DNA of 49,515 bases from Planctomycetota bacterium (GTDB lineage: Bacteria; Planctomycetota; Planctomycetia; Pirellulales; Pirellulaceae). Position numbers and translations under genes: made by a program. The stretch covers positions 1 through 49,515 of the forward strand of contig JAPOIJ010000016.1 of the NCBI GenBank assembly GCA_029979005.1, in the 5' to 3' direction. The stretch's first letter is position 1; each line of letters begins with the position of its first letter. The notes under the pieces were generated by a model, which saw only the letters and a list, made by a program, of their open reading frames with translations, made no database searches and was not told the origin of the DNA. Shown one piece after another: positions 1,751-48,854 of this stretch.

Positions 1751-3109
1751 TCACTCTGCGCCTAATTCGACCAGCCGCTCACGTGCACTCGTCAATGCCT
1801 CCATAGCAATTTCGAAATACTCCGGACTATCATCCTGCAATAAATTTTGCAGATAGATTTCTGGATCATCAACCCACTGCTGGAAGGCTGACACGAAGAG
1901 GCCGACGAATTCGTAATCACAAGTTTGAAGGGAACGAATAAACGCTCGATTTGCCGCTGGAAAAACGGAACTCGGCACATCGCTGACAGAAGAGAGACCT
2001 AACAAACCCGCGTAAATGACAAACTTAGAGTGACTCTCGAGCATCTTTATCGCGAATTTAATTACTCCTTCGTCAACCGCCGCCAAGCGGGTAAGTGCAA
2101 ACATCGCCTTGGCTCGAATCTGATCGTTCCGATTTTCGAGTAACAAATTCAACTCATCGACGACTCCAGCATTCGCCTTCTTCATTGCTCCGGCATTATT
2201 GATTGCATTTAATAAAACTGCAGGATTGTCAGAACGCAGTTTATCAAGGAGAGCGGACAATTGCCGTGTATCACTGTCACTCGTCACCTGCAAATAACGC
2301 AGGCCAATGATTTGCTCACTGATCGAATTTTGAGCGACGGTCTCAAGCCACGCATTTTGATCCTGCGTTAACTTAGTAGCCCTGCCTTCTTGGGGGCGAA
2401 AAAAAGAGTCATTCGTTTTTAAAAGATATTTCAGTGATTTCTGAGCCGGCTTCTTAATCACCGAAGGTACAGCATCCAACCATGACCACGACGTCTCGCC
2501 ACGGGCCCAGGCCGACAGCGCCAATGCGTACGCAAGATCTTGTTGATCAAGAAAAGGACGCGGGAATGTCTCCCATTCTGTTGTATCCCAAAACAGCCCT
2601 TTTTCATTGACCAAATTAATTTGGCTCAGCGGCACACCAAGGCCAACACCCACCACTGCTAAATCAACAAATTCTGGCAGGTGATGATATTCAAATTTCT
2701 GCTGACATAACAAATCTCGAACCACGTGATGCACAACTGCTGCTGTGGTTAAAACAGGTTCATCGCTTAACTCCGTCGTTACGGTAATTTTTCGCGTTTC
2801 AGGATCATACTCGCCCGGCAAACTACCGAGTCCTTCACAAGATCCTCCCCCTCAGCCACCGCCGCCAGATTTTTTCAGCATCTGCGGTTCAACAACAAGC
2901 TGAACATCAGTCACATCGAAAGCCAAGTGGCCACCAACAAATTCAACAATTTGCTCGGGAGCTTGAAAAACACCAACCATGGAATGGAGACTTTGATAAG
3001 GCAGGAGAAATTTCTCCGCTCCCAGACAATCGGCTAAACGCTGCAGAGCGTGCTCAATTCTCGCCTTTTCCATGTCGGGCAAATTGGGAACTGTTTTAAA
3101 AAAAGCCAT
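1751..3109 (-). CDS. candidate selenoprotein: Gly/Cys motif with in-frame UGA, HEAT-like C-terminus
   Basis: Two open frames, 2852-3109 and 1751-2821, lie in the same reading frame and are separated by a single TGA (2852-2854) and ten sense codons (GGGSCEGLGS). Reading TGA as selenocysteine gives one 452-residue protein with the motif GGGGUGGGSC (U86, C91). The N-terminal part is predicted helical plus an EFVGGHLAFDVTDV segment. After the motif comes LPGEYDPETRKITV and a helix with HHVVRD (127-132), at a place resembling a decayed HExxH site. Residues ~280-450 look like HEAT-type helical repeats. ATG at 3109 is chosen because an upstream extension to 3280 would cover a perfect 12-bp inverted repeat. 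A hairpin follows the UGA directly. Function is unknown. A nonsense mutation or sequencing error is the main alternative. Confidence 0.55.
2801..2846 (-). promoter_or_regulatory. candidate bacterial SECIS hairpin after in-frame UGA
   Basis: In the mRNA of the UGA-interrupted gene, AGGATC (2846-2841) pairs with GATCCT (2806-2801) and, inside it, ACTCG (2831-2827) pairs with CGAGT (2813-2809). The apical loop starts about 26 bases after the UGA and contains G and GU; an alternative inner stem is CTCGG/CCGGG with a 7-base loop. Bacterial SECIS elements are hairpins in the coding region just 3' of UGA with the apical loop roughly 16-37 bases away and a G in the loop, so the geometry fits. Pairing was read by eye, not folded by computer. 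Confidence 0.45.
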
Positions 3110-3153
3110 GTTTACGAACCCGTTAATTATCTGCCGAAAACCTGAACATACAG

Positions 3154-3189
3154 AATTATTTAATTTGTGGCGAGTTGAATTAAATAATT
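3154..3189. repeat. perfect 12-bp inverted repeat between kinase and UGA-containing gene
   Basis: AATTATTTAATT (3154-3165) is exactly complementary to AATTAAATAATT (3178-3189), with a 12-base spacer. It lies between the end of the kinase gene (3308) and the start of the UGA-containing gene (3109), both on the minus strand. It may be a transcription attenuator or an operator for the downstream gene; the stem has no G-C pair, so it is a poor intrinsic terminator. Confidence 0.6.
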
Positions 3190-3307
3190 GAACCCAATCG
3201 GTACTGACGAATTTCGGCGCTGTTGGTTCGCCAAATTTTATCGACACTTCGAAACTTATCACGCCTAAGACAAAACTCATTCAAACGAATCGAAACAGGT
3301 TCATTGT

Positions 3308-5491
3308 CTAGAGATCGTGTGAAAGGGCATCAACTCGAGCGACTAAAATCCAGGGTAATGCTTTAAATCGAGCGAAAACCAGTACGTCGCTGTCGTCGAC
3401 GACAAAGCCCGAAGTCGTCCCTTTCCTCGCGTGAGTCTCAAGTTCTGGAATTCCCAGAACGCCAAGTGCCTTCGTTTTATTTCCACTCATGGAAAGCGCC
3501 GACTTACGCCCTTTCTCCTCTGAACTAACCAAGACTCGTCCTGCATCATCCAGCAACCACGTTTCTTTCACACCGGCAATTTCCGGAATGTCCATCTCGT
3601 CAATGACCGTATCCATTGAAATATCGAGGCCAGCCACTCCCAGTAATTTGCCAGATCGATCATAGATCGGCTGATTGCAGGGCATTAAATAACCTGTCCC
3701 TGATGCATCGGGATAAATATCCCCCCAGATCGCGCCGTGTTTTGAAAGGTTCGAAACGTACCAAGGCCTTTTCCGAGGATCGTAGTCAGGCGGGTATTTT
3801 TCATTTGCGGGATAATTAATCATTACCCCATTTTCGAGTCCGACGTACGCCCAGTGGATTGGAGTACCCTCCCTGAGAATTGTATCCGCTTGACTTTTAT
3901 CAAGCTCGCTCGCGTCAATGCGCGCACTGCGTAACGCCGCATCACGCAAGACGTACTGCAATCCTCCTAATTGAAACACTTGATCCTGCACTTCAGGCAT
4001 CTTAACGTCAGGGGCCAAGACAACAACGCAATGATCAAAACTCGCTCGCTGCTGATATCGTTGAACCTCCACGAGATCAGCCGGGGGATTCGACCCTTTT
4101 AGATCCGCAGGTTCAATTATTCGATAGGGCTCAACCGGCGCGTGCTCAAGCTGTTCACGACTAGATGTCGAAATTCCCTCCAACAAGCCTTCCACGCGGA
4201 ATAGCAAGGAATCGAACTCATGCACTCTCTGATTAACCTTCGCAACTAAGTCGGCGAGTGTCTGCCCACGCGTCGAAGAAAGACGCTCGGCTTCGAGTCC
4301 GCGATACAAGCTGATCGTCGAAACGGCCGCAGCCATTGAAATAACAATCAACAGGGTCAACATTACCGCGACAGGATGACGCTGCACCCGACGCCACACA
4401 GATCGAACTAAATTATCAGGCCTTGCATGGACTTCCTCTCCATGAACATATCGTCGCAAGTCGTCTGAAAAACTTTGGACAGAAGCATAGCGATCTAAAG
4501 GATCTTTCGCCGTCGCTCGATCAACAATCGCCTGTAATGCAAGCGGTACGGTTTCACTTTGTTTCGCTTTGGGAAAGGAATCGCGAATTCCGGCGGGAAC
4601 TTTATCCAGCAATTCACTCATATTTTCTATTTCACGCGGGGCTGTAAATGTGAGCATTTCAAATAAGACCATGCCGAGTGAAAACTGATCACTTTTCGGG
4701 CCGACGTTTTTTCCAATTGCCTGCTCGGGCGACATATACTTTGGCGTTCCCATCATCGCGCCCACTTGCGTTTTCATACCGTCGTTGACGGTTGAAATAT
4801 CCGCCAACCCGGCTTTCGCTTCCAAACCGCCGTTGGCGGATTCATCATCCGGCTCATCCAGCAGACGCGCAATCCCCCAATCCATGACATACACTTCACC
4901 ATAAGCGCCAATCATCAAATTGTCGGGTTTCAAGTCACGGTGGATCACTCCGCGACTGTGACTGTAGGAAATCGCATCACAAACTCTCAAAAAGTGTTCA
5001 ATACGACCAATCTGACCGTGCCGTTCGTGGTCATAGTCTGAAGTCCCCAACACGGCTGAGCATTGTTTTACATACTCTGCAAATGTAATTCCGCGGATCA
5101 ACTTCATCGTTAGCGCGGGGCTACCCTGATTCGTCTCCTCCAGCCCGTAAACGGGAATTACATTCGGATGGGAAAGCTGCGCAGTGACCTGCGCTTCACG
5201 TACAAAGCGAGCCAAACCTACGTCGGCTTCACTCGAAAGGACCTTCACAGCAACTTCGCGATTCAACATACCGTCTCGCGCAGCAAATACTTCGCCCATC
5301 CCGCCCTGGCCCAATCTCGAAACGAGGGCAAAGCGGCCTTCCAGTGGACGGATAGCATCAGCCGACGCTCCAGCAAGTTCGGCCAAATTTTTACTGGATG
5401 TATCGCCCAGCCCATGGGCAACGGTTACTTCCTCGAGCTCGCCAGGAGAAGCATCAAGCGTTTTTTCAAATTCATCGTCAGTAGTATTCAC
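3308..5491 (-). CDS. membrane Ser/Thr protein kinase with C-terminal Cache-like sensor
   Basis: A 727-residue Hanks-type kinase (PknB family). Visible motifs: glycine loop GQGGMGEVF (61-69), catalytic lysine K83 in AVKVL, HRDLKPDN (184-191), DWG in place of DFG (204-206), GTPKYMSPEQA (249-258). One membrane segment spans ~374-396. The remaining ~330 residues lie outside the cytoplasm and resemble a dCache sensor, with a YPPDYDPRKRPWY segment, DIYPDASGTGYL and a GVAGLDISMDTV strand typical of the second Cache half. Ligand binding outside would thus be coupled to phosphorylation inside. The start is GTG. The gene stands alone and no substrate is evident nearby. Kinase and topology calls are strong; the sensor call comes from sequence pattern. 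Confidence 0.9.
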   Translation of the reverse strand: MNTTDDEFEKTLDASPGELEEVTVAHGLGDTSSKNLAELAGASADAIRPLEGRFALVSRLGQGGMGEVFAARDGMLNREVAVKVLSSEADVGLARFVREAQVTAQLSHPNVIPVYGLEETNQGSPALTMKLIRGITFAEYVKQCSAVLGTSDYDHERHGQIGRIEHFLRVCDAISYSHSRGVIHRDLKPDNLMIGAYGEVYVMDWGIARLLDEPDDESANGGLEAKAGLADISTVNDGMKTQVGAMMGTPKYMSPEQAIGKNVGPKSDQFSLGMVLFEMLTFTAPREIENMSELLDKVPAGIRDSFPKAKQSETVPLALQAIVDRATAKDPLDRYASVQSFSDDLRRYVHGEEVHARPDNLVRSVWRRVQRHPVAVMLTLLIVISMAAAVSTISLYRGLEAERLSSTRGQTLADLVAKVNQRVHEFDSLLFRVEGLLEGISTSSREQLEHAPVEPYRIIEPADLKGSNPPADLVEVQRYQQRASFDHCVVVLAPDVKMPEVQDQVFQLGGLQYVLRDAALRSARIDASELDKSQADTILREGTPIHWAYVGLENGVMINYPANEKYPPDYDPRKRPWYVSNLSKHGAIWGDIYPDASGTGYLMPCNQPIYDRSGKLLGVAGLDISMDTVIDEMDIPEIAGVKETWLLDDAGRVLVSSEEKGRKSALSMSGNKTKALGVLGIPELETHARKGTTSGFVVDDSDVLVFARFKALPWILVARVDALSHDL

Positions 5492-20119: not shown

Positions 20120-21631
20120 ATGCAAACTTTGAAATCCTTTCTAAACCAATCTCTCTTAATTTGGAGAGACTCTACCGGCGCTGGTCGAGTGGGGATTGCA
20201 TTACTGCTGACGATTTGCGTTGGCGGAATCATTACGGTTGGAATTTGGTCTGCCCAACCAAACTACGTCGTTCTCGCTCGCGACATCGATGACCCCACCC
20301 AAGCCGCAAAAATCATGGCGGCCTTAGATGCTGAGAACATCAGCTACCAGATTAAAGGCTCCGGTTCGATGATCATGGTCGGCTCCAGTAAATTATCGCG
20401 TGCGCGAATTGCCGCGGGAAAAGCGGGCTTGACCAGTGCCGGCAGCGAGATGGAAGAAATCTCCCCTTGGATGGATCCGGTAAGCCAACAGTATTACCTC
20501 AACACGAATCTCGAGCGAAGACTAAAGGTCGATATTGAAAAAATCAGAAGTGTGAAAACCGCGAATGTTCACTTGAGCATTCCGGAAAAGCAGGCTTTCA
20601 TCCGTCAATCGACCGATCCCACCGCTTCGGTTCTCATCGAAACATCGCATCTTGAAAAATTCAACGAAGCCGATGCCGCCGCGATCGCCGATTTCGTCGC
20701 CTCCGCTGTTCCCGGCCTTACTCCCGGTTCGGTTTCGGTTTCAGACACTCAGGGCAACCAGTACAGTACCGACGCCGAGGCGATGAACCTCAGCAAAAAA
20801 GAGGAATTTGTCGCTGAACGAGAGAGCGCGCTAAAACGGAAAGCCGAAAATCAGTTGCGAAATCTTTTTGGATGGGGCAATTTTAACGTTGAAGTTACTG
20901 CTGATTATAAATTTGAAAATGCAGTGCAGGAGAGCCGCGAGTTAGGGCCTGAAAAGTTCCTTATCCAAGAGAATATCAAACAACAAATGGATAGCGCAGC
21001 TGGGCCGGCCTCTGGTCTCGCAGGAACCGCGACAAACATCGGACTCCAGCCCGCTGGCGCAACCCCGCCCGCCCCCGCAAACAAGAGCCAGCTAAAGATG
21101 GAAGAGCAGGAGAGCAAATGGGATTATTCAGAATCAAAGCGTACCGAAACAATCGATGGTGCATTACTCAATTCGCTTTCCATCGCGGTAACGATAAATA
21201 AACAAGACCGAACTGCCACGCAAATTGCTGATCTCAAAACAACTCTCGAATCCTCCATTGGCGCCGCTTGCGGGGTGCGAATTGGCAAAGACCAAATCAC
21301 CGTCGATTTTATAGATTTTGTAACTGAGGAACCACTCGACGCAGTAGCAACGAGTACGATTCCATGGGATCAAATTAATGAAATCTTGAAAAATATCTCA
21401 TTGGGTGTCGCTGCTCTGGTCGCACTCTTCATTGCTCTTCGCACCTTCAAAAAGTTTCAACCTGATCCAATCGTCACGAGTGAAGCAGCCGCTGCTCCAA
21501 CATCACAATTGACACAATTAAGTGAGTTGGTCAAACAAAACCCGGAAGTATTCGCCAAGATTATTGATTCGTGGGCAAGTCTTGAAACCGAGACGGAAAC
21601 CAAAGAAGAATCAACCACCGTAGCAGCCTGA
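20120..21631 (+). CDS. fliF: FliF, MS-ring protein
   Basis: A 503-residue inner-membrane protein. Membrane helix 1 is at ~24-44 and helix 2 at ~426-442. Between them lie the YscJ/FliF ring-building domains with PNYVVLARDIDDPTQAAKIM, the block RRLKVDIEKIRSVKTANVHL and IPEKQAFIRQSTDPTASVLIE. The C-terminal tail after helix 2 (~58 residues) would bind FliG. Somewhat shorter than the 550-residue enterobacterial protein. The start is ATG, 63 bases after fliE. Confidence 0.95.
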   Translation: MQTLKSFLNQSLLIWRDSTGAGRVGIALLLTICVGGIITVGIWSAQPNYVVLARDIDDPTQAAKIMAALDAENISYQIKGSGSMIMVGSSKLSRARIAAGKAGLTSAGSEMEEISPWMDPVSQQYYLNTNLERRLKVDIEKIRSVKTANVHLSIPEKQAFIRQSTDPTASVLIETSHLEKFNEADAAAIADFVASAVPGLTPGSVSVSDTQGNQYSTDAEAMNLSKKEEFVAERESALKRKAENQLRNLFGWGNFNVEVTADYKFENAVQESRELGPEKFLIQENIKQQMDSAAGPASGLAGTATNIGLQPAGATPPAPANKSQLKMEEQESKWDYSESKRTETIDGALLNSLSIAVTINKQDRTATQIADLKTTLESSIGAACGVRIGKDQITVDFIDFVTEEPLDAVATSTIPWDQINEILKNISLGVAALVALFIALRTFKKFQPDPIVTSEAAAAPTSQLTQLSELVKQNPEVFAKIIDSWASLETETETKEESTTVAA

Positions 21632-21643
21632 GTCAAATAAGAA

Positions 21644-22657
21644 ATGTCAACGCTTTCAACAGAAGAACGACTCGCGCTATTACTAAGCGTGCTGGGGCCC
21701 GATGCAGTTAATGCTGCATTGAAGAAGATGAACCCTACGCGCTCAAATTTCATCAAGAACTTACTTGACGAATACAAAACCGTTCCTCCCAGTGAAGAGG
21801 AAATCGAGTTTATCATTCGTGATTTCAGTCGGTACTTTTCTTTCGCTATGAAAACGCTTGGCCCGGAAATCCATCAAGCATCAACCGCCCTTCGAATCGC
21901 AAAAAGAAAAAAGCTAAAACAACAGGCTCAACCCGTCACCCCCCCAGTTCCCTCGGAAGAACCCGTCGTATTTGAAAAGATCGACGAATCAGGTGACTAC
22001 GTCCGTGACTTGAACCAACTCGACCCATTTCAAATTTCAACTGCGCTCGCCGATGACAATGCAAAAACCGTTGCACTCGTGGTCAATCTGCTCGAAACCC
22101 ATTTGGGCGCGGAGATCATCAAAGAGCTTGACGATCACATTCGGGATCAAGTCATTATATATCTGAGTGAAGAAAGCGTTGTCCCGGAACGCATCATTCA
22201 GGAAGTTTTGAAAACAACGTTTCAAAAAGCGAATGCCGTTACCGTAAAAAAGGAAACCACCAGCCGAATCGACACGTTGGCTCAATTGATGCGTTCGCTG
22301 CCCAAAGATATCCGCAAAGGACTCATCGAGAAACTCAATGATCGCGATGAAGAAATGGTTCTCGCGATTCGAGCCAAACTGTACTTGTTTGATGACATCC
22401 TTCGCCTGGATGACCGTGACTGTCAAAAATTGATTGGTCAGACAAAATCGGAAATCCTCGCAGTTGCCCTTCAACAGGCAGACCCTGACATTGCAGAAAA
22501 ACTATTTAAAAATGTTTCCAAACGCGCCCGACAGGCAATCGAAGATGAAATGGAATATACAGTCGGCGCGAAAGGACACGAGATCGAAGAAGCCAGAAAA
22601 CAACTCGTCGATGCCATGGCCCGCTTAGACGAAGCAGGAGATATCACGTTGAACTAA
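21644..22657 (+). CDS. fliG: FliG, rotor / switch protein
   Basis: A 337-residue protein with the N-terminal, middle and C-terminal FliG domains; the torque domain is seen as LRLDDRDCQKLIGQTKSEILAVAL and VSKRARQAIEDEMEYTVG, which carry the charged residues that contact MotA. The middle domain is recognisable from TVALVVNLLETHLGAEIIKELD, but the usual EHPQ motif is replaced by a DDNAKT-type sequence. Divergence fits a planctomycete. It is 12 bases after fliF. Confidence 0.93.
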   Translation: MSTLSTEERLALLLSVLGPDAVNAALKKMNPTRSNFIKNLLDEYKTVPPSEEEIEFIIRDFSRYFSFAMKTLGPEIHQASTALRIAKRKKLKQQAQPVTPPVPSEEPVVFEKIDESGDYVRDLNQLDPFQISTALADDNAKTVALVVNLLETHLGAEIIKELDDHIRDQVIIYLSEESVVPERIIQEVLKTTFQKANAVTVKKETTSRIDTLAQLMRSLPKDIRKGLIEKLNDRDEEMVLAIRAKLYLFDDILRLDDRDCQKLIGQTKSEILAVALQQADPDIAEKLFKNVSKRARQAIEDEMEYTVGAKGHEIEEARKQLVDAMARLDEAGDITLN

Positions 22658-22659
22658 CT

Positions 22660-23199
22660 ATGGTTGAACATCACGTACAATTTGATCGCCAAGTAAAAAA
22701 CTGCCGATTTATGGATCGGTCAGAACCGGTGACTCGTACCGTGAATCCAGTGGCCGCCGAGGTGGCAACAGCAGCGGTCAACGAACGCATGAACGGATTG
22801 CTTGAAAACATCGCAACCGGAATCGACAGTATCGACCTTAAGACATCCGAATTTGCAGACGAAGTCGTTTCTCTTTCCATCTCCCTATCCCGCATTATTG
22901 TTGAAAAACTAGTCGGGGAATCGCAGGAACTCAAAGAAAAACGCCTAACCAATATACTTTCGGAAGCCCTCGCCCGCCCCGAGGCTCCAGTCGGTGTCTA
23001 TCTCAATCCAATCAATCTGGAGTGCATCAAAAAGCAACTGTCCAAGGACACGAATACCGAAGAAATTAACTTTCAAATCGATGACTCGATTGAGCCGGGA
23101 GAATGCCGGGTCGAATTTGACACCTATGAACTACTTTCGCGAATGGAAACTCAACTCGATGAGATCCAAGCTGGGTTAACGGAGATCATTGATGAGTAA
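22660..23199 (+). CDS. fliH: FliH, flagellar export ATPase regulator
   Basis: A 179-residue protein. It begins MVEHHVQFDRQV and has a helical region followed by the FliH/HrpE-type C-terminal domain (VSLSISLSRIIVEKLVGESQELKE, YLNPINLECIKK, IEPGECRVEFDTYE). It lies directly between fliG and fliI and overlaps fliI by eight bases. Role: binds the FliI ATPase and the soluble export complex at the base of the gate. Confidence 0.85.
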   Translation: MVEHHVQFDRQVKNCRFMDRSEPVTRTVNPVAAEVATAAVNERMNGLLENIATGIDSIDLKTSEFADEVVSLSISLSRIIVEKLVGESQELKEKRLTNILSEALARPEAPVGVYLNPINLECIKKQLSKDTNTEEINFQIDDSIEPGECRVEFDTYELLSRMETQLDEIQAGLTEIIDE

Positions 23200-24535
23200 A
23201 TTCTCCGAAAAAGTTCTCAGACGATGCTCTGAAATCGTCAGCAACACGCGATCATTGCAGTCCGTTGGGTGTCTAACCGTAGCCCAGGGTGCCATCACTG
23301 CATCACTCCCTGCCAGTGTGGGGGAGCTGGTAGAAATTGAAAATAAGTCCGGCCCCAATACACTCGCTGAAGTCATCGGATTTTCTGACGATCTCGTTCA
23401 GTTGATGCCCTTTTCGCACAACAATCAGCTCCAGCGAGGCGATCGCGTCTTTTCGTTGGGACGCCCCATGAAAGTACCCGTGGGTGATCAAATGCTGGGC
23501 CGTGTAATTAATGCCATTGGTGAACCCATCGACGGGAACGGGAAACTGGGAACTCAGCGATTCAAGAGCGTTGTCCTCGATCCGCCAAATGCACTTACCC
23601 GGAAACCTGTCGACGAAGTCTTTGCCACGGGGCAAAAAGCAATCGACGGCATGCTGACCATTGGAAAAGGTCAACGCGTGGGATTATTCGCCGGAAGTGG
23701 TGTCGGAAAAAGTACGCTGCTGGGGCAGATTGCCCGATACGCAAGCGCCGACCTCAACGTTGTCGCTCTGATTGGCGAGCGAGGACGAGAAGTACTGCCA
23801 TTCATCAATGAATCTCTGGGAGCGGAGGGGATGGCAAAATCAATTGTTATCGTCTCTACCGCCAATGAAAGTCCACTGGCCAGAGTTCGAGCAGCGGAAT
23901 CCGCAATCGCCATTGCCAACTGGCATCGACGACAAGGAAAAAGTGTATTCCTGATGCTCGATAGCCTGACGCGATTCGCGATGGCTCAACGCGACCTCGG
24001 ATTAATGCTGGGTGAACCTCCGACCACCCGCGGTTATACACCCTCTGTTTTTCAAAAGATGGCGACGCTCTTGGAACAACTCGGGAATTCCGACCGTGGC
24101 TCCATTACAGGACTGCTAACCGTGCTGGTCGATGGAGATGACATGAATGATCCGATTGCCGACTCTGCCCGCTCTATTTTAGATGGGCACATCGTCCTTG
24201 ACCGCGATCTTGCCAACGCGGGACACTATCCTCCAATCAGTGTCTTACAAAGCCTCAGTCGACTATTTCAGGAACTGACCGAACCGGTGCATGCATCCTC
24301 TGCCGTTGCTATCCGGCAAATTATGGCGAAATATCAGGATGTCATTGATCTCATTCAGGTCGGCGCCTACACCAAAGGCGCCTCACCGCAAACAGATATT
24401 GCCGTTGAAATGTATCCAAAGATTTGTCAGTTTCTCCAACAACCTTTGCAGGCTCCCTGCTCCATCGATGACACCAAGCGACAAATGCAGAGGCTCGTTG
24501 ACATGCTCCAGCACCAATATCCGCCCAGCGGATGA
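23192..24535 (+). CDS. fliI: FliI, flagellar export ATPase
   Basis: A 447-residue ATPase of the F1-beta-like family. The P loop is AGSGVGKSTLLG (~166-177); MLDSLTRFAMAQRDLGLMLG (Walker B), EPPTTRGYTPSVF and DPIADSARSILDGHIVLDR follow, all diagnostic of FliI/YscN ATPases. ATG at 23192 is chosen over the TTG at 23189; it overlaps the fliH stop by eight bases. The ATPase energises loading of export substrates in the cytoplasm. Confidence 0.97.
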   Translation: MSKFSEKVLRRCSEIVSNTRSLQSVGCLTVAQGAITASLPASVGELVEIENKSGPNTLAEVIGFSDDLVQLMPFSHNNQLQRGDRVFSLGRPMKVPVGDQMLGRVINAIGEPIDGNGKLGTQRFKSVVLDPPNALTRKPVDEVFATGQKAIDGMLTIGKGQRVGLFAGSGVGKSTLLGQIARYASADLNVVALIGERGREVLPFINESLGAEGMAKSIVIVSTANESPLARVRAAESAIAIANWHRRQGKSVFLMLDSLTRFAMAQRDLGLMLGEPPTTRGYTPSVFQKMATLLEQLGNSDRGSITGLLTVLVDGDDMNDPIADSARSILDGHIVLDRDLANAGHYPPISVLQSLSRLFQELTEPVHASSAVAIRQIMAKYQDVIDLIQVGAYTKGASPQTDIAVEMYPKICQFLQQPLQAPCSIDDTKRQMQRLVDMLQHQYPPSG

Positions 24536-28056: not shown

Positions 28057-29697
28057 TTAGAAGATATTATTCAATTCTTGCAAGACTTCCGTTGCAACGG
28101 TGATTGATCTCGCATTTGCCGAGAAACCACGTTGAGCAATAATCAACTGAGTAAACTCGAGAGCAACATCAACATTCGAGGACTCGAGGTGTTCTCCACG
28201 GACCGCTCCTCTGCCATTGGCAGCACCGACGCCGATATTAGGCGTACCGCTGTTCACGGTTTGTCCGTAATAGTTATCACCAAGACTTTCGAGGCCCTGT
28301 TGATTTGAAAACCTCGCAATCGCAAGCTGTGCAACTTCAACTTCACGTCCGTTACTGGCAATCCCTGTCAATACTCCATCAGATGACACATTCATCTTCA
28401 CGATCGTTCCTGGAGAAAATCCATCCTGTTGAAACGTCGCAGAATAATTCGTCGCGAGATGAGTAAGATTGCCAAGGGAAACATCTATCTCCTGAGGATC
28501 AACGATCGAGTCAATGACCACTTCAATATTGGCATCTCCCAATCCAGTACCGTTCATTATCTGAAACGATCCGTCATCGTTAAATCGAATCTCTGAAATC
28601 AGGCCATCACTCAGGCTGACCGTGGGATCACTGGACGAAAAATTAGCTGACCAAGTATTGTTTCCAGTCTTCTCGAAGGTGACATTCAATAGATGAGGTT
28701 CACCCCGGGAATCAAATATCTGCAACGTTGAATCGACGGTATCACCTGATTTCCCGTCGGTTTCCACGATGAAGATTGCATCTTCAAAATCGGTCTCACC
28801 AACGTTACCTGCGTTGTCCGACAACTGCAGACTCAGCAACGCATCCCCTTCATTATCGGCAGTTACTAACAAATTACCGGTTGCGTCGAGGGAAACAGTC
28901 GCGCCCACGATACTCCCGTTGATTGCATTGACGAGATCGTCAACGGTAGTTGTGCCGTCCGCCGGGAGGTTCGTTGAGAACGAAGAACCATCGACATTAG
29001 TACCTACAATGTCGATCGAATCGCCCAACACATAATTGACTCCATTAAAGTCAAGATCGTTCAGCAATGTAGTGGGCGTGGCAGCCGCTCCGGCTGCTGT
29101 GAACGGAGATGCAGTCGTCAGCACTTCTGTCAGAGGTGGGACAGCTGAAGCGGGCAAGTTGCCAATTAAATCTGCCGAAGTAGTTGCTTTTCCAAGAACA
29201 CTCGCGCCCAGCGGAATCTGAATTCGCGTGTCTCCTGCAACTTGAAATCCAGGTTCAGTTCCCGTCGCTTCTCCCTTGGCACCAAAACGCTGAACGTATC
29301 CACCGGTCGAGGGATCTACCAAAAATCCAGAGGAATCGACTGAAAATGAACCGTCGCGTGTGTAAGCTTGTTGCTCTGCCTGAATGACAAAGAAGCCATC
29401 ACCGTCGAGTGCGTAGTCGAATTCACCACTACTCGCATTGAGAACTCCTTGCGTAAAATTCTGAGAGACCTCAGCGACACGAACGCCGTTGCCGACTTGA
29501 ATCGGGTTCACGCCGCCATCAACACTTCCAGAAGCACCCACGGCGGGAGCCCGATCGGTGTAAATCAGATCGGAAAATAAAACCCGTTGCGATTTGAATC
29601 CAGTCGTATTCAAGTTAGCAATATTGCTCGCAACCACATCGAGTTTCTGCTGGTGAGCCAACAGCCCAGTCGCACCGGTAATTAAACTTTTACTCAT
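28057..29697 (-). CDS. flgE: FlgE, flagellar hook protein
   Basis: A 546-residue axial protein. N-terminus LLAHQQKLDVVASNIANLNTTGFKSQRVLF carries the SNIANxNTTGFK motif; GEFDYALDGDGFFVIQ and FSVDSSGFLVDPSTGGYVQ follow; the C-terminus has SSNVDVALEFTQLIIAQRGF and ATEVLQELNN. The middle is enlarged relative to the 402-residue enterobacterial hook, so the protein has extra surface domains. It lies last in the fliK-flgD-flgE operon after a 145-base gap. Confidence 0.95.
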   Translation of the reverse strand: MSKSLITGATGLLAHQQKLDVVASNIANLNTTGFKSQRVLFSDLIYTDRAPAVGASGSVDGGVNPIQVGNGVRVAEVSQNFTQGVLNASSGEFDYALDGDGFFVIQAEQQAYTRDGSFSVDSSGFLVDPSTGGYVQRFGAKGEATGTEPGFQVAGDTRIQIPLGASVLGKATTSADLIGNLPASAVPPLTEVLTTASPFTAAGAAATPTTLLNDLDFNGVNYVLGDSIDIVGTNVDGSSFSTNLPADGTTTVDDLVNAINGSIVGATVSLDATGNLLVTADNEGDALLSLQLSDNAGNVGETDFEDAIFIVETDGKSGDTVDSTLQIFDSRGEPHLLNVTFEKTGNNTWSANFSSSDPTVSLSDGLISEIRFNDDGSFQIMNGTGLGDANIEVVIDSIVDPQEIDVSLGNLTHLATNYSATFQQDGFSPGTIVKMNVSSDGVLTGIASNGREVEVAQLAIARFSNQQGLESLGDNYYGQTVNSGTPNIGVGAANGRGAVRGEHLESSNVDVALEFTQLIIAQRGFSANARSITVATEVLQELNNIF

Positions 29698-38064: not shown

Positions 38065-39474
38065 ATGTTAGGCATTCAAAACAACGTTAGTGCTCTTAAC
38101 GCACAACACAACTTAGGCCGTTCACAAAACAGCCTAAATACCTCGATCGAACGACTTTCGTCTGGTTTCAAGGTCAACCGTGGTGCTGATGGACCAGCGG
38201 CCTTGGTTATTTCTGAGAAGCAGCGAGCTCAGATCGCTGGTTTGAAGGCTGCCATCGACAATACTGACAAAGCGGTTGCGGTTGTTCAGACTGCAGAGGG
38301 TGCTCTTACTGAGATCAACAGTCTTTTGGTAAAGGCTCGATCACTTTCGATCGATTCAGCGAACACGGGTGTTAATGATGCAGACGCACTTGCTGCGAAC
38401 CAAGCTGAGATCGACAACGTTTTGGATACGATCAATCGTATCGCTGCAAACACACAGTTTGGCGATTCCAACCTACTTGACGGATCTTCAGGATTGCAGG
38501 GAACCGCAAGTGACACTGACGTAACTTTCTTGAAAGCAACTTCAGATACTTCTGCTGGCTCTTACGCCGTTGCAGTTACGACTGTTGCTGAGCGAGCTAA
38601 CGCGACTGCTGGAACTGCTCAAACAACTAACTTGGCCGCTGCTGAAACGCTTACCGTTAACGGTGTTAGCATTTCTCTCAACGCTGGCCTTGATCAAAAC
38701 GCGGTTGTTTCGCGGATTAACGAATTCACCGGACAAACTGGTGTTGTTGCTGCTGTAGTCGGTGGTGCAACTCAATTGCGAACCGAATCTTTCGGAACCG
38801 CTGCAACCATTGATGTCATCTCTGACACTGCTGCTGCCGCTACAAGTTCTGGATTCGGAACAACACTTGTTCAGGATTCAGGTGTCAATGTCGCTGGTAC
38901 CATCGGTGGTAACGCCGCAACAGGAAGCGGAGCGGTTTTGACCGGATCTGCAGGTGCCTCACAGGGCATCATGGTTAGCATCGCAGAAGATGCCGCTAAC
39001 CTTACACAGACTGTAACCGGTGCACAGGGCAACATTACAATTGCTGACAACTCTTTGATCTTCCAGATTGGTGCCAACCAGAATCAAACCGTTTCGATCT
39101 CGATTGATTCAGTTGATTCAACTGGCTTGGGAATCGGTGTTGCTGGCAACCAGTTCACTAACTTGAACGAAATCAGTGTTACTTCGGCTTCAGGTGCTCA
39201 AGATTCGATCGGTATCATTGATGCTGCAATTGATGAGATTTCAACCCTTCGTGGAACACTCGGTGCTTTCCAGGGTAACACTCTGGAGTCAACCGCGACC
39301 AACATGCGTTCAACACTTGAAAACACTGTAAATGCAGAATCTGTTATTCGCGATACCGATTTCGCTGAAGAGATCTCGAAGTTCACCAACAGCCAGGTTT
39401 TGGTTCAGGCAGGTGCTTCTGTTCTTTCAAGTGCAAACCAGTCTTCTCAGTTGATCCTTTCACTACTTGGCTAA
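38065..39474 (+). CDS. fliC: FliC, flagellin
   Basis: A 469-residue flagellin with the conserved D0/D1 ends: MLGIQNNVSALNAQHNLGRS, INRLSSG-like SIERLSSGFKVNRGADGPAA at the start, and DFAEEISKFTNSQVLVQAG plus SSQLILSLLG at the end. The central part is variable, with a flagellin-IN-like segment (AETLTVNGVSISLNAG). Codon use is more biased (many GCT, GTT, GGT) than in the neighbours, as expected for a highly expressed gene. GGAG lies 13 bases before the ATG. It is followed by a strong terminator. Confidence 0.97.
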   Translation: MLGIQNNVSALNAQHNLGRSQNSLNTSIERLSSGFKVNRGADGPAALVISEKQRAQIAGLKAAIDNTDKAVAVVQTAEGALTEINSLLVKARSLSIDSANTGVNDADALAANQAEIDNVLDTINRIAANTQFGDSNLLDGSSGLQGTASDTDVTFLKATSDTSAGSYAVAVTTVAERANATAGTAQTTNLAAAETLTVNGVSISLNAGLDQNAVVSRINEFTGQTGVVAAVVGGATQLRTESFGTAATIDVISDTAAAATSSGFGTTLVQDSGVNVAGTIGGNAATGSGAVLTGSAGASQGIMVSIAEDAANLTQTVTGAQGNITIADNSLIFQIGANQNQTVSISIDSVDSTGLGIGVAGNQFTNLNEISVTSASGAQDSIGIIDAAIDEISTLRGTLGAFQGNTLESTATNMRSTLENTVNAESVIRDTDFAEEISKFTNSQVLVQAGASVLSSANQSSQLILSLLG

Positions 39475-39500
39475 ATCAACCGAGAAAACATGAGATTAAC

Positions 39501-39523
39501 AGCTTCATTGAACCGATGAAGCT
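39501..39523 (+). terminator. hairpin downstream of fliC (first)
   Basis: AGCTTCAT (39501-39508) pairs perfectly with ATGAAGCT (39516-39523) around a seven-base loop, 27 bases after the fliC stop. There is no T tract, so it may stabilise the mRNA 3' end instead of terminating. A further GCTCCC/GGGAGC stem (39542-39557) follows. Confidence 0.6.
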
Positions 39524-39575
39524 TTAGGATAAAAGAACTGGGCTCCCTGCGGGGAGCTGGTTCAACACAGCGACG

Positions 39576-39613
39576 ATGAAAGTCGGCCTCGGCCAACTTT
39601 CATTGTTTCGTTT
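39576..39613 (+). terminator. intrinsic terminator of fliC
   Basis: ATGAAAGT (39576-39583) pairs with ACTTTCAT (39596-39603), with an inner GGC/GCC extension, followed by a T-rich run (39604-39613). Together with two hairpins upstream it forms a triple stem-loop 3' region, which probably protects the abundant flagellin mRNA and insulates fliD. Confidence 0.8.
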
Positions 39614-39661
39614 AATAAGATAAGAAAAAGTTTCTATTCCCTAGCCGCTGGGAGAAATTAT

Positions 39662-41638
39662 ATGTTTTCCATTGATGGACTCGTCAGTGGGCTCGACACC
39701 ACGTCGATCATCGAAGGACTGGTCTCCCTTCAAAAATCTCAGGTCGACCGCCTGAATGTCAAGAAAAGTGAAATTCTGACAGAACAGGCTGCATTTCAGG
39801 GCGTCGAAGCGCGTCTCCTCTCGCTTAAGTCCAGCATGAGCCAGCTCAACCGCTCATCGGGCTCAGTCTTTGATCAAACCACCGCATCATCAAGCGACGA
39901 GTCTATCCTGACAGTGACTTCTCAGTCGAAGGCAATTCCCGGGTCTTACAACGTTCGAGTTAATTCCCTGGCAAGAGCCCATCAAATTGGCTCTCAAGGT
40001 TTTAGTGATCCTTCAACGACAATCTCCACCGGTACTATTTCATTCCAGGTCGGCGACCGCGCCGCGGCTGAGATTACAATTGATTCCTCCAACAATACGG
40101 TGGATGGATTGGTCAATGCCATCAACACCCAATCAGACGATGTCTCAGCGTCGATCGTTTTTGATCAAGCTAACTCGGCAAATCGAATTCTTCTGACATC
40201 GAAGTACACTGGCGAAGCCAACGAAATCAATGTCACGAACAATCTAGTGACACCAACAGGTTCTGAAGTACTTCCTGATTTTTCCGGAGCGGCTATTCAA
40301 GACGCAGCGAACGCCCAACTCCAACTTGGCTCGGGCGCGGGGGCCATTGTGGCTGAGTATGATTCCAATGTGATTGATGGATTGATCGACAATGTCACCT
40401 TAAACCTGGAGTCGGCAGACGCTTCGAAAGATATCAACATAAAAGTTACGCGCGACACCGACTCAGCCAAAACCGCAATCGAAGGATTTGTCGAAAGCTA
40501 CAATTCGATGATCCAATATATTGATGACCAGACCGCTTTCAATACTTCAACCAACACTGCCAGTCCGCTACTTGGAAATCGCACAGTTTCCACCCTGAAA
40601 ACAACCTTGAGCTCCATGGTGACCGAGAGCGTCCCCGGCCTATCTTCGTCTGTCAACCGTTTCTCACAACTCGGAATCGACATTGATAATTCTGGAAAAC
40701 TAATTATTAATTCGGCCGAACTTGAAAGTGCGTTACAAGGCAACACCGATGGAATTGAGCCGACAGACATCCAACGTGTTTTTGGAATGAGTGGTGTGAG
40801 TGACAATTCCGGCGTAAGCTTTCTACTGGGTAGTACTCGCACCAAAGCCAGTTCGTCAGCCTACCAGGTCGATATTTTGCAGGCTGCGGAACGGGGTTCG
40901 GTTACTGCAACCAGTGCGCTCGATTCTTCGATCGTCATTGATTCCTCGAACAACCAAATTCAACTTTCCATCGACAGCCTCGAAACTGACACCATCACAC
41001 TGGAATCGGGGACCTACACCCAGGAAGAATTGGCGAGTCACCTCCAATCCAGAATCAATGGGATTGATACTCGTGACTTCGATGATGTTGATATCTCTCT
41101 GGAATCGGGGTTTCTCGAAATCACTTCGCAGAGATACGGACGTTCGTCAGAAATATCCGCTATTTCAGGGACGGCCAGCAGCATCCTTGGATTCGATGGA
41201 ACTGAAACGGGCGTAGGGCAAGACGTTGCCGGTTCTTTCATTGTCGATGGCGTTGTCGAAACAGCCACGGGAACGGGACGCGTCCTGATTGGTGACTCCG
41301 ACAATGACAATACAGCTGACCTTCAAGTCCGAGTCACCTTAACTTCAACGCAGGTCTCTGGCGGAGTTGAAGCCAATCTGGATGTCTCTCGCGGCATCAG
41401 TTCATCGCTTGATAAATATTTTGGCGAACTACTCGATGCCAGCGTTGGTACGATCAAGACTGCTGAAGAGGACTTTACGCTGAGAATCGAATCGCTCGAT
41501 GCTTCCATCGCACGAGTGAACGCAATCAGCGAATCAAAAACGGAGGACTTGATCGCTCAGTTCACCGCGTTGGAAAGGGTACTGAGCGACCTACAGGGTA
41601 CCAGCAGTTTTCTAACCAGCCAGCTGGCATCGCTTTAG
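39662..41638 (+). CDS. fliD: FliD, filament cap protein
   Basis: A 658-residue protein, longer than the 470-residue enterobacterial cap. The N-terminal FliD domain is MFSIDGLVSGLDTTSIIEGL followed by a coiled-coil segment; the middle carries flagellin-IN-like repeats (ITIDSSNNTVDGLVNAINTQ; a second, similar unit at IVIDSSNNQIQLSIDSL); the C-terminal domain has ERVLSDLQGTSSFLTSQLAS, typical of FliD ends. GGGAG sits 8-12 bases before the ATG. It caps the filament and folds exported flagellin. Confidence 0.95.
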   Translation: MFSIDGLVSGLDTTSIIEGLVSLQKSQVDRLNVKKSEILTEQAAFQGVEARLLSLKSSMSQLNRSSGSVFDQTTASSSDESILTVTSQSKAIPGSYNVRVNSLARAHQIGSQGFSDPSTTISTGTISFQVGDRAAAEITIDSSNNTVDGLVNAINTQSDDVSASIVFDQANSANRILLTSKYTGEANEINVTNNLVTPTGSEVLPDFSGAAIQDAANAQLQLGSGAGAIVAEYDSNVIDGLIDNVTLNLESADASKDINIKVTRDTDSAKTAIEGFVESYNSMIQYIDDQTAFNTSTNTASPLLGNRTVSTLKTTLSSMVTESVPGLSSSVNRFSQLGIDIDNSGKLIINSAELESALQGNTDGIEPTDIQRVFGMSGVSDNSGVSFLLGSTRTKASSSAYQVDILQAAERGSVTATSALDSSIVIDSSNNQIQLSIDSLETDTITLESGTYTQEELASHLQSRINGIDTRDFDDVDISLESGFLEITSQRYGRSSEISAISGTASSILGFDGTETGVGQDVAGSFIVDGVVETATGTGRVLIGDSDNDNTADLQVRVTLTSTQVSGGVEANLDVSRGISSSLDKYFGELLDASVGTIKTAEEDFTLRIESLDASIARVNAISESKTEDLIAQFTALERVLSDLQGTSSFLTSQLASL

Positions 41639-46895: not shown

Positions 46896-48854
46896 TTACC
46901 TGATCATCTGGAACAGTTCGTCGAGCATGGATTCCATCGATCGCACAACTTGAACTGCGGCTTCGTAAGTTTTTTGATATTGGGTCAAATTAATGAGCTC
47001 CTCATTAACGTCGACTCCCGAAACAGAATCTCGCTCGGATGCATATTGAAATTTCAAATCAGAAAGACTGCTCTGCACACTCGTGGAAGCCTGTACGCGG
47101 AATCCAATTTCAGAGTTAAGCTCACCAAGAAAGTTCTCGAACGTAGCCCCACCGTCAGCTACGAATTGATTTCGCATTTCGATCAGGCCTTTAAGGTTGT
47201 CGGTGTCGGCCAAGTCTCCCGACTGAGACGTAGCGATTAAATCCGGGTTGCCTTTGATTCGGGAGTCCAAATCGATACTGCGAGCATCGTTCCCGGAAAA
47301 GAACGTATTCAAACCAACGGCTGAAAGTATTCCGCTGGTGTCCGGGTCAGCGACCATGACAACTTCAAAATTATCACCGGCATTCAAATTACCAACGCCA
47401 AATTCCAATGACACTCCCTGACCAAGCTCCAGGGGATCTCCGGCGGCATAGCCATCTCCCACATCAATCTCATCGATTACCGTGCCGCTGGCATCCGCAA
47501 CCTGTACTTTCAAACCAACTGTTTTGCCAATCTCACCGGTTCCAAGCGCAGTGATGGTATACGTTTGATTTGCTTCGCCGGTATAATTTCCACTCAAGCC
47601 CGGAATCGATGTTCCCGTCACCGCTGCCAAATCAGGTGTGGTCTCTAATCGACCGGTAAAATCGAATTGATAACCGGGTTGTGCGATCACCGACATTTTC
47701 CCCGTGTTACTATCAACGACTGCTTGAACGTTACTAATCGTCGTAATTTTCGTCGCGACATCACGCAACGAATCAGTGGCTGGATCAATCGTTATTCCCG
47801 TCGTTTGTCGTTCCCCTGAAGGAGAAGTAATTGTGACAAACAGCTCGCCGGCCTCGACGGGAAAGACAGCCGACTCGTCTAACGGCAAATCAACATCGCT
47901 AACCGCACGCGTTCCATGAAGTGTCTTGAACGACCCGTCGATTCCAACGCCCACCGCATGCAGTTGATCCATCTGAGATATCAATTCTGCGGCAAAGGTA
48001 TCAATCTGACCCGAAAAACGCTCGATCACATTGTTGTGCACATCAAGAAGCGCCGCGATTCGCCCACCGGCGAACTCTACAGGCCGGTCACCTCCCTCAA
48101 GCTGAACCTGAATATTACCTGAAGCATCGGTCACCGTTTCAAACCGAACCGGAGTCATACCGATGTTGACCGAACTACCCGCAAGCCCAAGTCCCATATT
48201 ATTTTGGACAAACTCAAACCGCTGCACATCAACCCGCTCGGCAATCCGATTCACAAGTCGGTCACGTTTATCGAGCAAATCATTCGGGATTCTATCTTCC
48301 AAGGTTGCATTGATTTGGTTTTGCAGTTCTACCAGTTCCTCAATTTCAAGATTGAGCGTGTCAACTTCCAGTTGAAGTTGCTGCTTTACGCCGTCTTTAA
48401 TATCGACGAACTGATTTGAAGTCTCTCGAATACGATTGGCTAAATTCCCCGCCTGATTTAAAACTGAATTCCGAAGCGAAATCTCTCCAGGATTAGCTGA
48501 GAGTCGAGACATTTCATCAAACAGCCCATTCAACGCATCCTGAATCGAACCGTCACCTACTGTGAGAACTGATTCTATTCGCGACTCCAACATCAAACTT
48601 TGATCGATTCGGCTCAGGTCAGAGGTGGAATTCGTATACGCCGTTTCGGTGATATTATTTCGGATACGGCGCAATTCGCCGACATTGACGCCCGCCCCGG
48701 CAACTTTTCCGTCGACGACTGTCGAACGCCGGGTGTCGAGTAAAACGTCTTGGCGGTGATAGCCCTCTGTACTCGCATTAGCGAGGTTTTGCGAAATCGT
48801 ATTGATCGCAAACTGACTGGCCTGAATCGCTGATAGTCCAATGTTAAGATTCAT
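46896..48854 (-). CDS. flgK: FlgK, hook-filament junction protein
   Basis: A 652-residue axial protein. Start: LSAIQASQFAINTISQNLAN with ASTEGYHRQDVLLDTRR, the HAP1 motif; end: GVDVNEELINLTQYQKTYEA, then AVQVVRSMESMLDELFQMIR. The middle has a segment YTITALGTGEIGKTVGLKVQ that looks like an inserted flagellin-IN-like module. Ten bases separate it from flgN upstream, giving an flgN-flgK-flgL operon. Confidence 0.96.
   Translation of the reverse strand: MNLNIGLSAIQASQFAINTISQNLANASTEGYHRQDVLLDTRRSTVVDGKVAGAGVNVGELRRIRNNITETAYTNSTSDLSRIDQSLMLESRIESVLTVGDGSIQDALNGLFDEMSRLSANPGEISLRNSVLNQAGNLANRIRETSNQFVDIKDGVKQQLQLEVDTLNLEIEELVELQNQINATLEDRIPNDLLDKRDRLVNRIAERVDVQRFEFVQNNMGLGLAGSSVNIGMTPVRFETVTDASGNIQVQLEGGDRPVEFAGGRIAALLDVHNNVIERFSGQIDTFAAELISQMDQLHAVGVGIDGSFKTLHGTRAVSDVDLPLDESAVFPVEAGELFVTITSPSGERQTTGITIDPATDSLRDVATKITTISNVQAVVDSNTGKMSVIAQPGYQFDFTGRLETTPDLAAVTGTSIPGLSGNYTGEANQTYTITALGTGEIGKTVGLKVQVADASGTVIDEIDVGDGYAAGDPLELGQGVSLEFGVGNLNAGDNFEVVMVADPDTSGILSAVGLNTFFSGNDARSIDLDSRIKGNPDLIATSQSGDLADTDNLKGLIEMRNQFVADGGATFENFLGELNSEIGFRVQASTSVQSSLSDLKFQYASERDSVSGVDVNEELINLTQYQKTYEAAVQVVRSMESMLDELFQMIR

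Follow-up and report, generated by a model that had tools for sequence, protein, structure and literature searches.

We conclude, with very high confidence, that positions 1751..3109 of the window (i.e., the whole 49,515-nucleotide stretch of planctomycete DNA analysed here) hold one intact bacterial selenoprotein gene of 452 residues, a judgment that is drawn from sequence and that covers the identity of the gene, not its function. This gene is encoded on the minus strand, with its ATG at 3109 and its terminal TGA at 1753-1751, and has full-length homologues (n = 34). When the frame 3109->1754 is read with TGA as selenocysteine (Sec), it gives 452 residues (MAFFK...LGAE) up to the TGA at 1753-1751 and contains a single internal TGA, codon 86 (2852..2854, read 2854-2852), within the stretch SGGGGUGGGSCEGLG, with Cys91 five residues further on. 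The preliminary description had proposed a candidate selenoprotein at these coordinates, with one TGA between two open frames in the same frame, a continuous 452-residue product on readthrough and a Gly-rich run five residues ahead of a Cys; all of this is borne out, and the strand, which it had not stated, is minus. Its expectation that annotation would split the gene in two also holds for mechanical ORF calling, which yields pieces at 2852-3280 (142 aa) and 1751-2821 (356 aa); because gene calling of this kind cuts the gene, such families are easily missed. The Gly-rich Sec loop (GGGGUGGGSC, residues 82-91; 2837..2866, minus) is conserved in the 34 homologues, and no signal peptide was seen by eye at the N terminus of the window protein. 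To the preliminary description we add, besides the strand, a putative zincin-like domain origin, HEAT-like repeats and a clade in which Cys stands in place of Sec, and each sequence-based check that we ran (site codon, machinery and recurrence of the TGA) supports the selenoprotein reading.

When 197 related genomes were searched, 57 gave a match of some kind and 34 a full-length one (E 1.3e-85 or better), the matches in the other 23 being weaker and mostly partial. Aligned with these full-length homologues, whose identity to the window protein goes down to 38%, the UGA site reads 30 U and 4 C, with TGA in 30/34 genomes, TGT or TGC in 4/34 and no non-Cys alternative. Every one of the 26 same-genus homologues, counting that of the own genome, has TGA, and the further TGA forms (G073, G118, G076 and G082) come from three genera, as do the Cys forms (G038, G101, G040 and G055). 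Two same-genus genomes (G009 and G013) gave no match to the selenoprotein in the search of the 197 genomes. Seven loci with 84-95% identity (Mariniblastus sp., Pirellulaceae and Planctomycetaceae bacterium), which came from a short-peptide contig scan, were taken as already in the set and left out of the homologue counts. In a phylum-wide sample of 392 genomes there were matches in 37, full-length only in the own genome, and several of the partial matches have TGA or TAG inside the match. From the substitution rates, the region after the TGA is judged to be under purifying selection: for the seven closest pairs, dN/dS is 0.052-0.113 downstream of the TGA and 0.074-0.38 upstream, where the top value comes from one nearly identical pair.

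The hairpin that the preliminary description had placed after the TGA is present, and it covaries over 30 sequences. This predicted SECIS hairpin (2814..2830, minus), to which covariation, RNAalifold and synonymous-codon constraint point, has a 6-bp stem that starts 21 nt past the UGA and pairs window positions 2830-2825 with 2819-2814, enclosing the 5-nt loop AGUUU. The TGA and the 45 nt after it align gap-free in 30 sequences, and the loop is GGUCU in 16 of these rows, AGUUU in 13 (the window among them) and AGUCU in one; the GGUCU form presumably resembles the loop of E. coli fdhF. All three loops have the G that, following PMC1088965, is part of the bacterial SECIS criterion of a small apical loop with a G. 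Over the 29 distinct rows, 97.7% of the 174 stem cells are paired, with changes on both sides in 10 cells, and 0/500 shuffles (which ignore relatedness) reached either this pairing or this number of double-change cells; slid versions of the stem pair in only 24.7-49.4%. Counted by stem pairs, there are two with a double change, no better than in shuffles (232/500 reach two), and sliding the stem by +3 likewise gives two (3 cells). RNAalifold predicted the same helix unprompted, folds of single sequences (48 nt) did not always form the hairpin, and Rfam gave no match for the hairpin region at E up to 1. Among 22 representatives that are <80% identical, synonymous constraint is strongest at the hairpin: the top eight of 178 18-column windows begin 3-10 columns past the TGA, rank 12 goes to the one that starts at +1, and codon +10 is GGT or AGT in 22/22, with a like-residue identity of 1.00 versus 0.40 expected. 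The comparisons support a mechanism in which SelB and Sec-tRNA(UCA) decode the UGA at 2854-2852 as Sec, guided by this hairpin in the coding sequence just past it.

The selenocysteine genes by which the preliminary description proposed to check its reading (selA, selB, selD and tRNA-Sec) were all found in the own genome (92.5% complete), at 586, 365.9, 259.2 and 67.4 bits, respectively, the tRNA-Sec with anticodon tca (UCA in RNA). In this genome, the selD match (L063, C124:23733-24641) accounts for ∼305 residues out of an open frame of 740 aa, which may mean that SelD is joined to a further domain here. Across the 30 TGA genomes, selA is above cut-off in 24 (missing in G002, G003, G004 and G018; fragments only in G021 and G023), selB in 27 (missing in G002, G004 and G023) and tRNA-Sec, among scored candidates, in 26 (E 3.0e-12 or better; missing in G004, G021, G023 and G027), with all three together in 23. 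Absence of tRNA-Sec is not absolute, since only a share of the candidates (20 in each genome, 150 in the repeat) is scored; when the search was repeated for the genomes without a strong match, the best candidates were tRNA-Ser or tRNA-Gly. Two of these genomes are incomplete, G004 (80% complete), with 0/3 markers, and G023 (71% complete), with the selA fragment only. Neither selA nor selB is above cut-off in any of the four Cys genomes (97-100% complete). There, the best match to the tRNA-Sec model is in each case a tRNA-Ser(tga) according to ARAGORN, scoring barely above the gathering score in three (49.2-49.8 bits) and 45.5 bits in G040.

On a tree of the 34 homologues and nine outgroup relatives, made by a quick method that leaves several forks unresolved, the U/C difference at the site needs one change, and the Cys clade is nested among Sec forms, grouping with G073/G118/G082 at SH-aLRT 99. 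Sec is therefore probably the older state, and the association between Sec and its machinery counts as a single evolutionary event, the tree needing only the one change. In this history, Sec would have given way to Cys in a single clade in which neither selA nor selB is detected, i.e., a natural Sec-to-Cys replacement alongside machinery loss, and the existence of both forms in related bacteria makes a direct test of selenium's contribution possible. Three of the four Cys forms (L036, L037 and L038) have an extra Cys immediately before the Sec-equivalent Cys (GGGCCGG), as though this vicinal pair compensated for the lost Sec. G103 and G109, both 100% complete and from the genera of the Cys-form genomes G040 and G055, had no match among the 197 genomes searched; the gene may be dispensable after loss of selenium use.

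A single stop in one frame could, at first glance, mark a pseudogene, the TGA being a point mutation or a sequencing error, and the preliminary description had allowed for a point mutation. However, the TGA recurs in 30 genomes, with identities down to 38%, and is therefore no error of one assembly; dN/dS downstream of it is 0.052-0.113; and Cys is the sole alternative at the site. Because one codon is TGA in 30/34 homologues and Cys in the other four, chance or decay is excluded as its origin, a point mutation included, and with the codon conserved in 30 genomes we rejected the pseudogene reading, which we consider scarcely credible. It is also very improbable that the two frames are two genes, or that an 85-residue N-terminal product is made and translation reinitiates downstream. 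Partial termination is expected at a Sec UGA, so a short product may also exist; recoding of the E. coli fdhF UGA is put at 30-40% in vivo in PMC4513850. Against this reading, the homologues share no start (the first ATG, GTG or TTG lies 11 to 64 codons past the TGA, at +11 in 8/30), conservation is among the highest at the codons directly past the TGA, ahead of any start, and all four Cys homologues are single open frames. With no common start after the TGA and with the Cys homologues unbroken, this reading was likewise rejected. A UGA read as another amino acid, by a code change or by Trp/Gly readthrough and with no part for selenium, would suit the glycine-rich context, and UGA=Gly codes occur in some bacteria. 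Yet TGA still terminates 12/30 of the TGA-form genes, 4/4 of the Cys-form genes and 6/28 of the window ORFs with at least 250 aa, Cys is the only alternative residue, and the full Sec machinery is present in the own genome; on these grounds we rejected a code change, and we hold it to be highly improbable.

For the intact selenoprotein, the scaffold can be traced through more distant relatives. The profile of the 34 homologues aligns over 427 columns with that of 19 relatives (hhalign; probability 100, E 2.4e-46), which were picked from the weaker matches in the 197-genome and 392-genome searches and are not all of them, and planctomycete zincin-like HExxH proteins (e.g., L058 and L069) are homologous over these 427 columns, with the same domain order. 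The two sets differ at two places: HExxH is kept in 12/19 relatives and found in 0/34 of the selenoprotein family, in which residues 127-131 (HHVVR in the window protein; 2717..2731, minus) take its position, and the Gly-rich Sec loop coincides with a gap in the 19 relatives. By the HExxH criterion the selenoprotein is thus not a metallopeptidase. The label "zincin-like" rests on the HExxH motif and on matches of the relatives to SprT-like and M78 models, all of them below the cut-offs, and the N-terminal domain of L058/L069-type relatives has no Pfam model above cut-off. Shared ancestry of the N-terminal domain with a zincin-like HExxH domain, with the zinc motif lost and the Gly-rich Sec86 loop gained, is supported by these comparisons. 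The C-terminal half matches best at HEAT-like repeats around residues 285-364 (2018..2257, minus), with Pfam HEAT_2 at 21.6 bits (E 2.8e-4; curated cut-off 27.7) and the 34-row profile matching PDB alpha-Rep chains at positions 277-377 (E 1.2e-9). In the PDB search with this profile, the significant matches were repeat proteins, in the C-terminal half, and none fell on the Sec domain; C-terminal HEAT repeats are also found in some of the planctomycete zincin-like HExxH proteins. AlphaFold2, run on the window protein with seven close relatives, gave a mean pLDDT of 41 and a pTM of 0.27. Eight planctomycete proteins of ∼250-274 aa with HExxH (L070, L071, L073, L074, L078, L084, L086 and L088) form a family with a conserved DxExxTDL...G.G(I/L)F.AN stretch, and no Pfam model came out above cut-off in the three that were scanned.

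We take the gene to found a selenoprotein family absent from Table 1 of PMC13188914 (2026) and from NCBIfam 20.0. As far as that table goes, its 119 prokaryotic selenoprotein families and subfamilies include no zincin-like or HEAT family and no GGGGUGGGSC motif, and NCBIfam 20.0 gave only unrelated weak matches for the window protein and L038. No such family appeared in the literature searched, which stopped short of preprints and most subscription papers; the selenoprotein candidates from two planctomycetes that supplement S9 of PMC4807772 is described as holding may already include it. The family is like bacterial selenoproteins as a class in its in-frame UGA, its Cys homologue, the hairpin after the UGA and the accompanying selA, selB, selD and tRNA-Sec, and differs from those in Table 1 of PMC13188914 in its zincin-like/HEAT-like scaffold and its motif, which are unlisted there. 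The UGSC-containing protein (NF041046) likewise has Gly, Ser and Cys following Sec, but it is a 147-position family, the motif here is UGGGSC instead, and the window protein has no NCBIfam match; the NF041046 profile gave 0 matches in four genomes, controls likewise giving 0, so that only the NCBIfam scan of the protein bears on this point. In hypothetical protein DG (NF049953, ribbon_DG_selen; motif GUxG in Table 1 of PMC13188914), Gly flanks Sec on both sides as well, but this is a 172-position family that the window protein does not match, and its profile was above cut-off in 0/4 genomes; a single match below threshold in G025 lies at another place in that genome. Characterised selenoproteins mostly have a thioredoxin-like fold, according to PMC13188914. 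The present family would place Sec on a scaffold unrelated to that fold, zincin-like and without the zinc motif.

Residues invariant in the 34 homologues include K15, E19, H61, G84, U/C86, G87, G88, Y101, R106, D132, E146, W174, D175 and Cys397, among others. Cys91 is present in 32/34 (replaced by Ser in L017 and by Val in L051), so that not every member can use a simple Sec-Cys91 pair; Cys28 (28/34) and Cys81 (19/34) also vary, and what is fixed is thus the selenol or thiol at position 86, not its partner Cys. Cys397 is probably structural, since several relatives without the loop have it too. We infer, tentatively and at somewhat less than even confidence, that Sec86 acts in redox chemistry as a selenol in the cytosol, the HEAT-like repeats serving for docking, and we favour this role over metal or metalloid binding. 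In such a thiol/selenol redox enzyme, Sec86 would be the reactive centre, held flexibly by its glycine hinge near the former active-site cleft; a selenenylsulfide would join it to Cys91 in the proteins that have this residue and, in the others, to a different Cys or to a partner protein, which the HEAT-like repeats would dock. It is possible, though less likely than not, that a zinc-less metallopeptidase-like domain became a selenium enzyme by insertion of a glycine hinge with Sec beside the old cleft. If true, it would define a class of selenoprotein catalysis distinct from both the thioredoxin fold and the metal-cofactor enzymes, later turned into a Cys enzyme in a lineage that gave up selenium use.

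Alternatively, the protein could be a selenoprotein whose selenolate binds or senses a soft metal, a metalloid or selenium, with no redox catalysis. The varying Cys residues leave no fixed resolving Cys (Cys91 32/34, Cys28 28/34, Cys81 19/34), invariant H61, D132 and E146 could be further ligands, and the relatives are, by motif, metal-site proteins. On the other hand, no metal-resistance gene lies among the scanned neighbours, the neighbourhood is not conserved, and Cys397, shared with several relatives without the loop, is probably structural; we consider metal binding unlikely, and the redox role stays the one we favour. The gene neighbours in the window are a CotH-kinase protein (342-1697) and a Ser/Thr protein kinase that carries a dCache sensor domain (3308-5491). 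Comparison of the neighbourhoods of the window and 20 relatives (out of 33 other loci) showed no gene widely shared and gave no hint of function, homologues of the kinase gene lying near the selenoprotein gene at 4/21 loci and of the CotH gene at 2/21. Elsewhere in the window, on both strands, are flagellar genes (20120-24535, 28057-29697, 38065-41638 and 46896-48854), a set that comprises FliF, FliG, a FliI-type ATPase, an FlgE-type hook protein, flagellin, FliD and FlgK.
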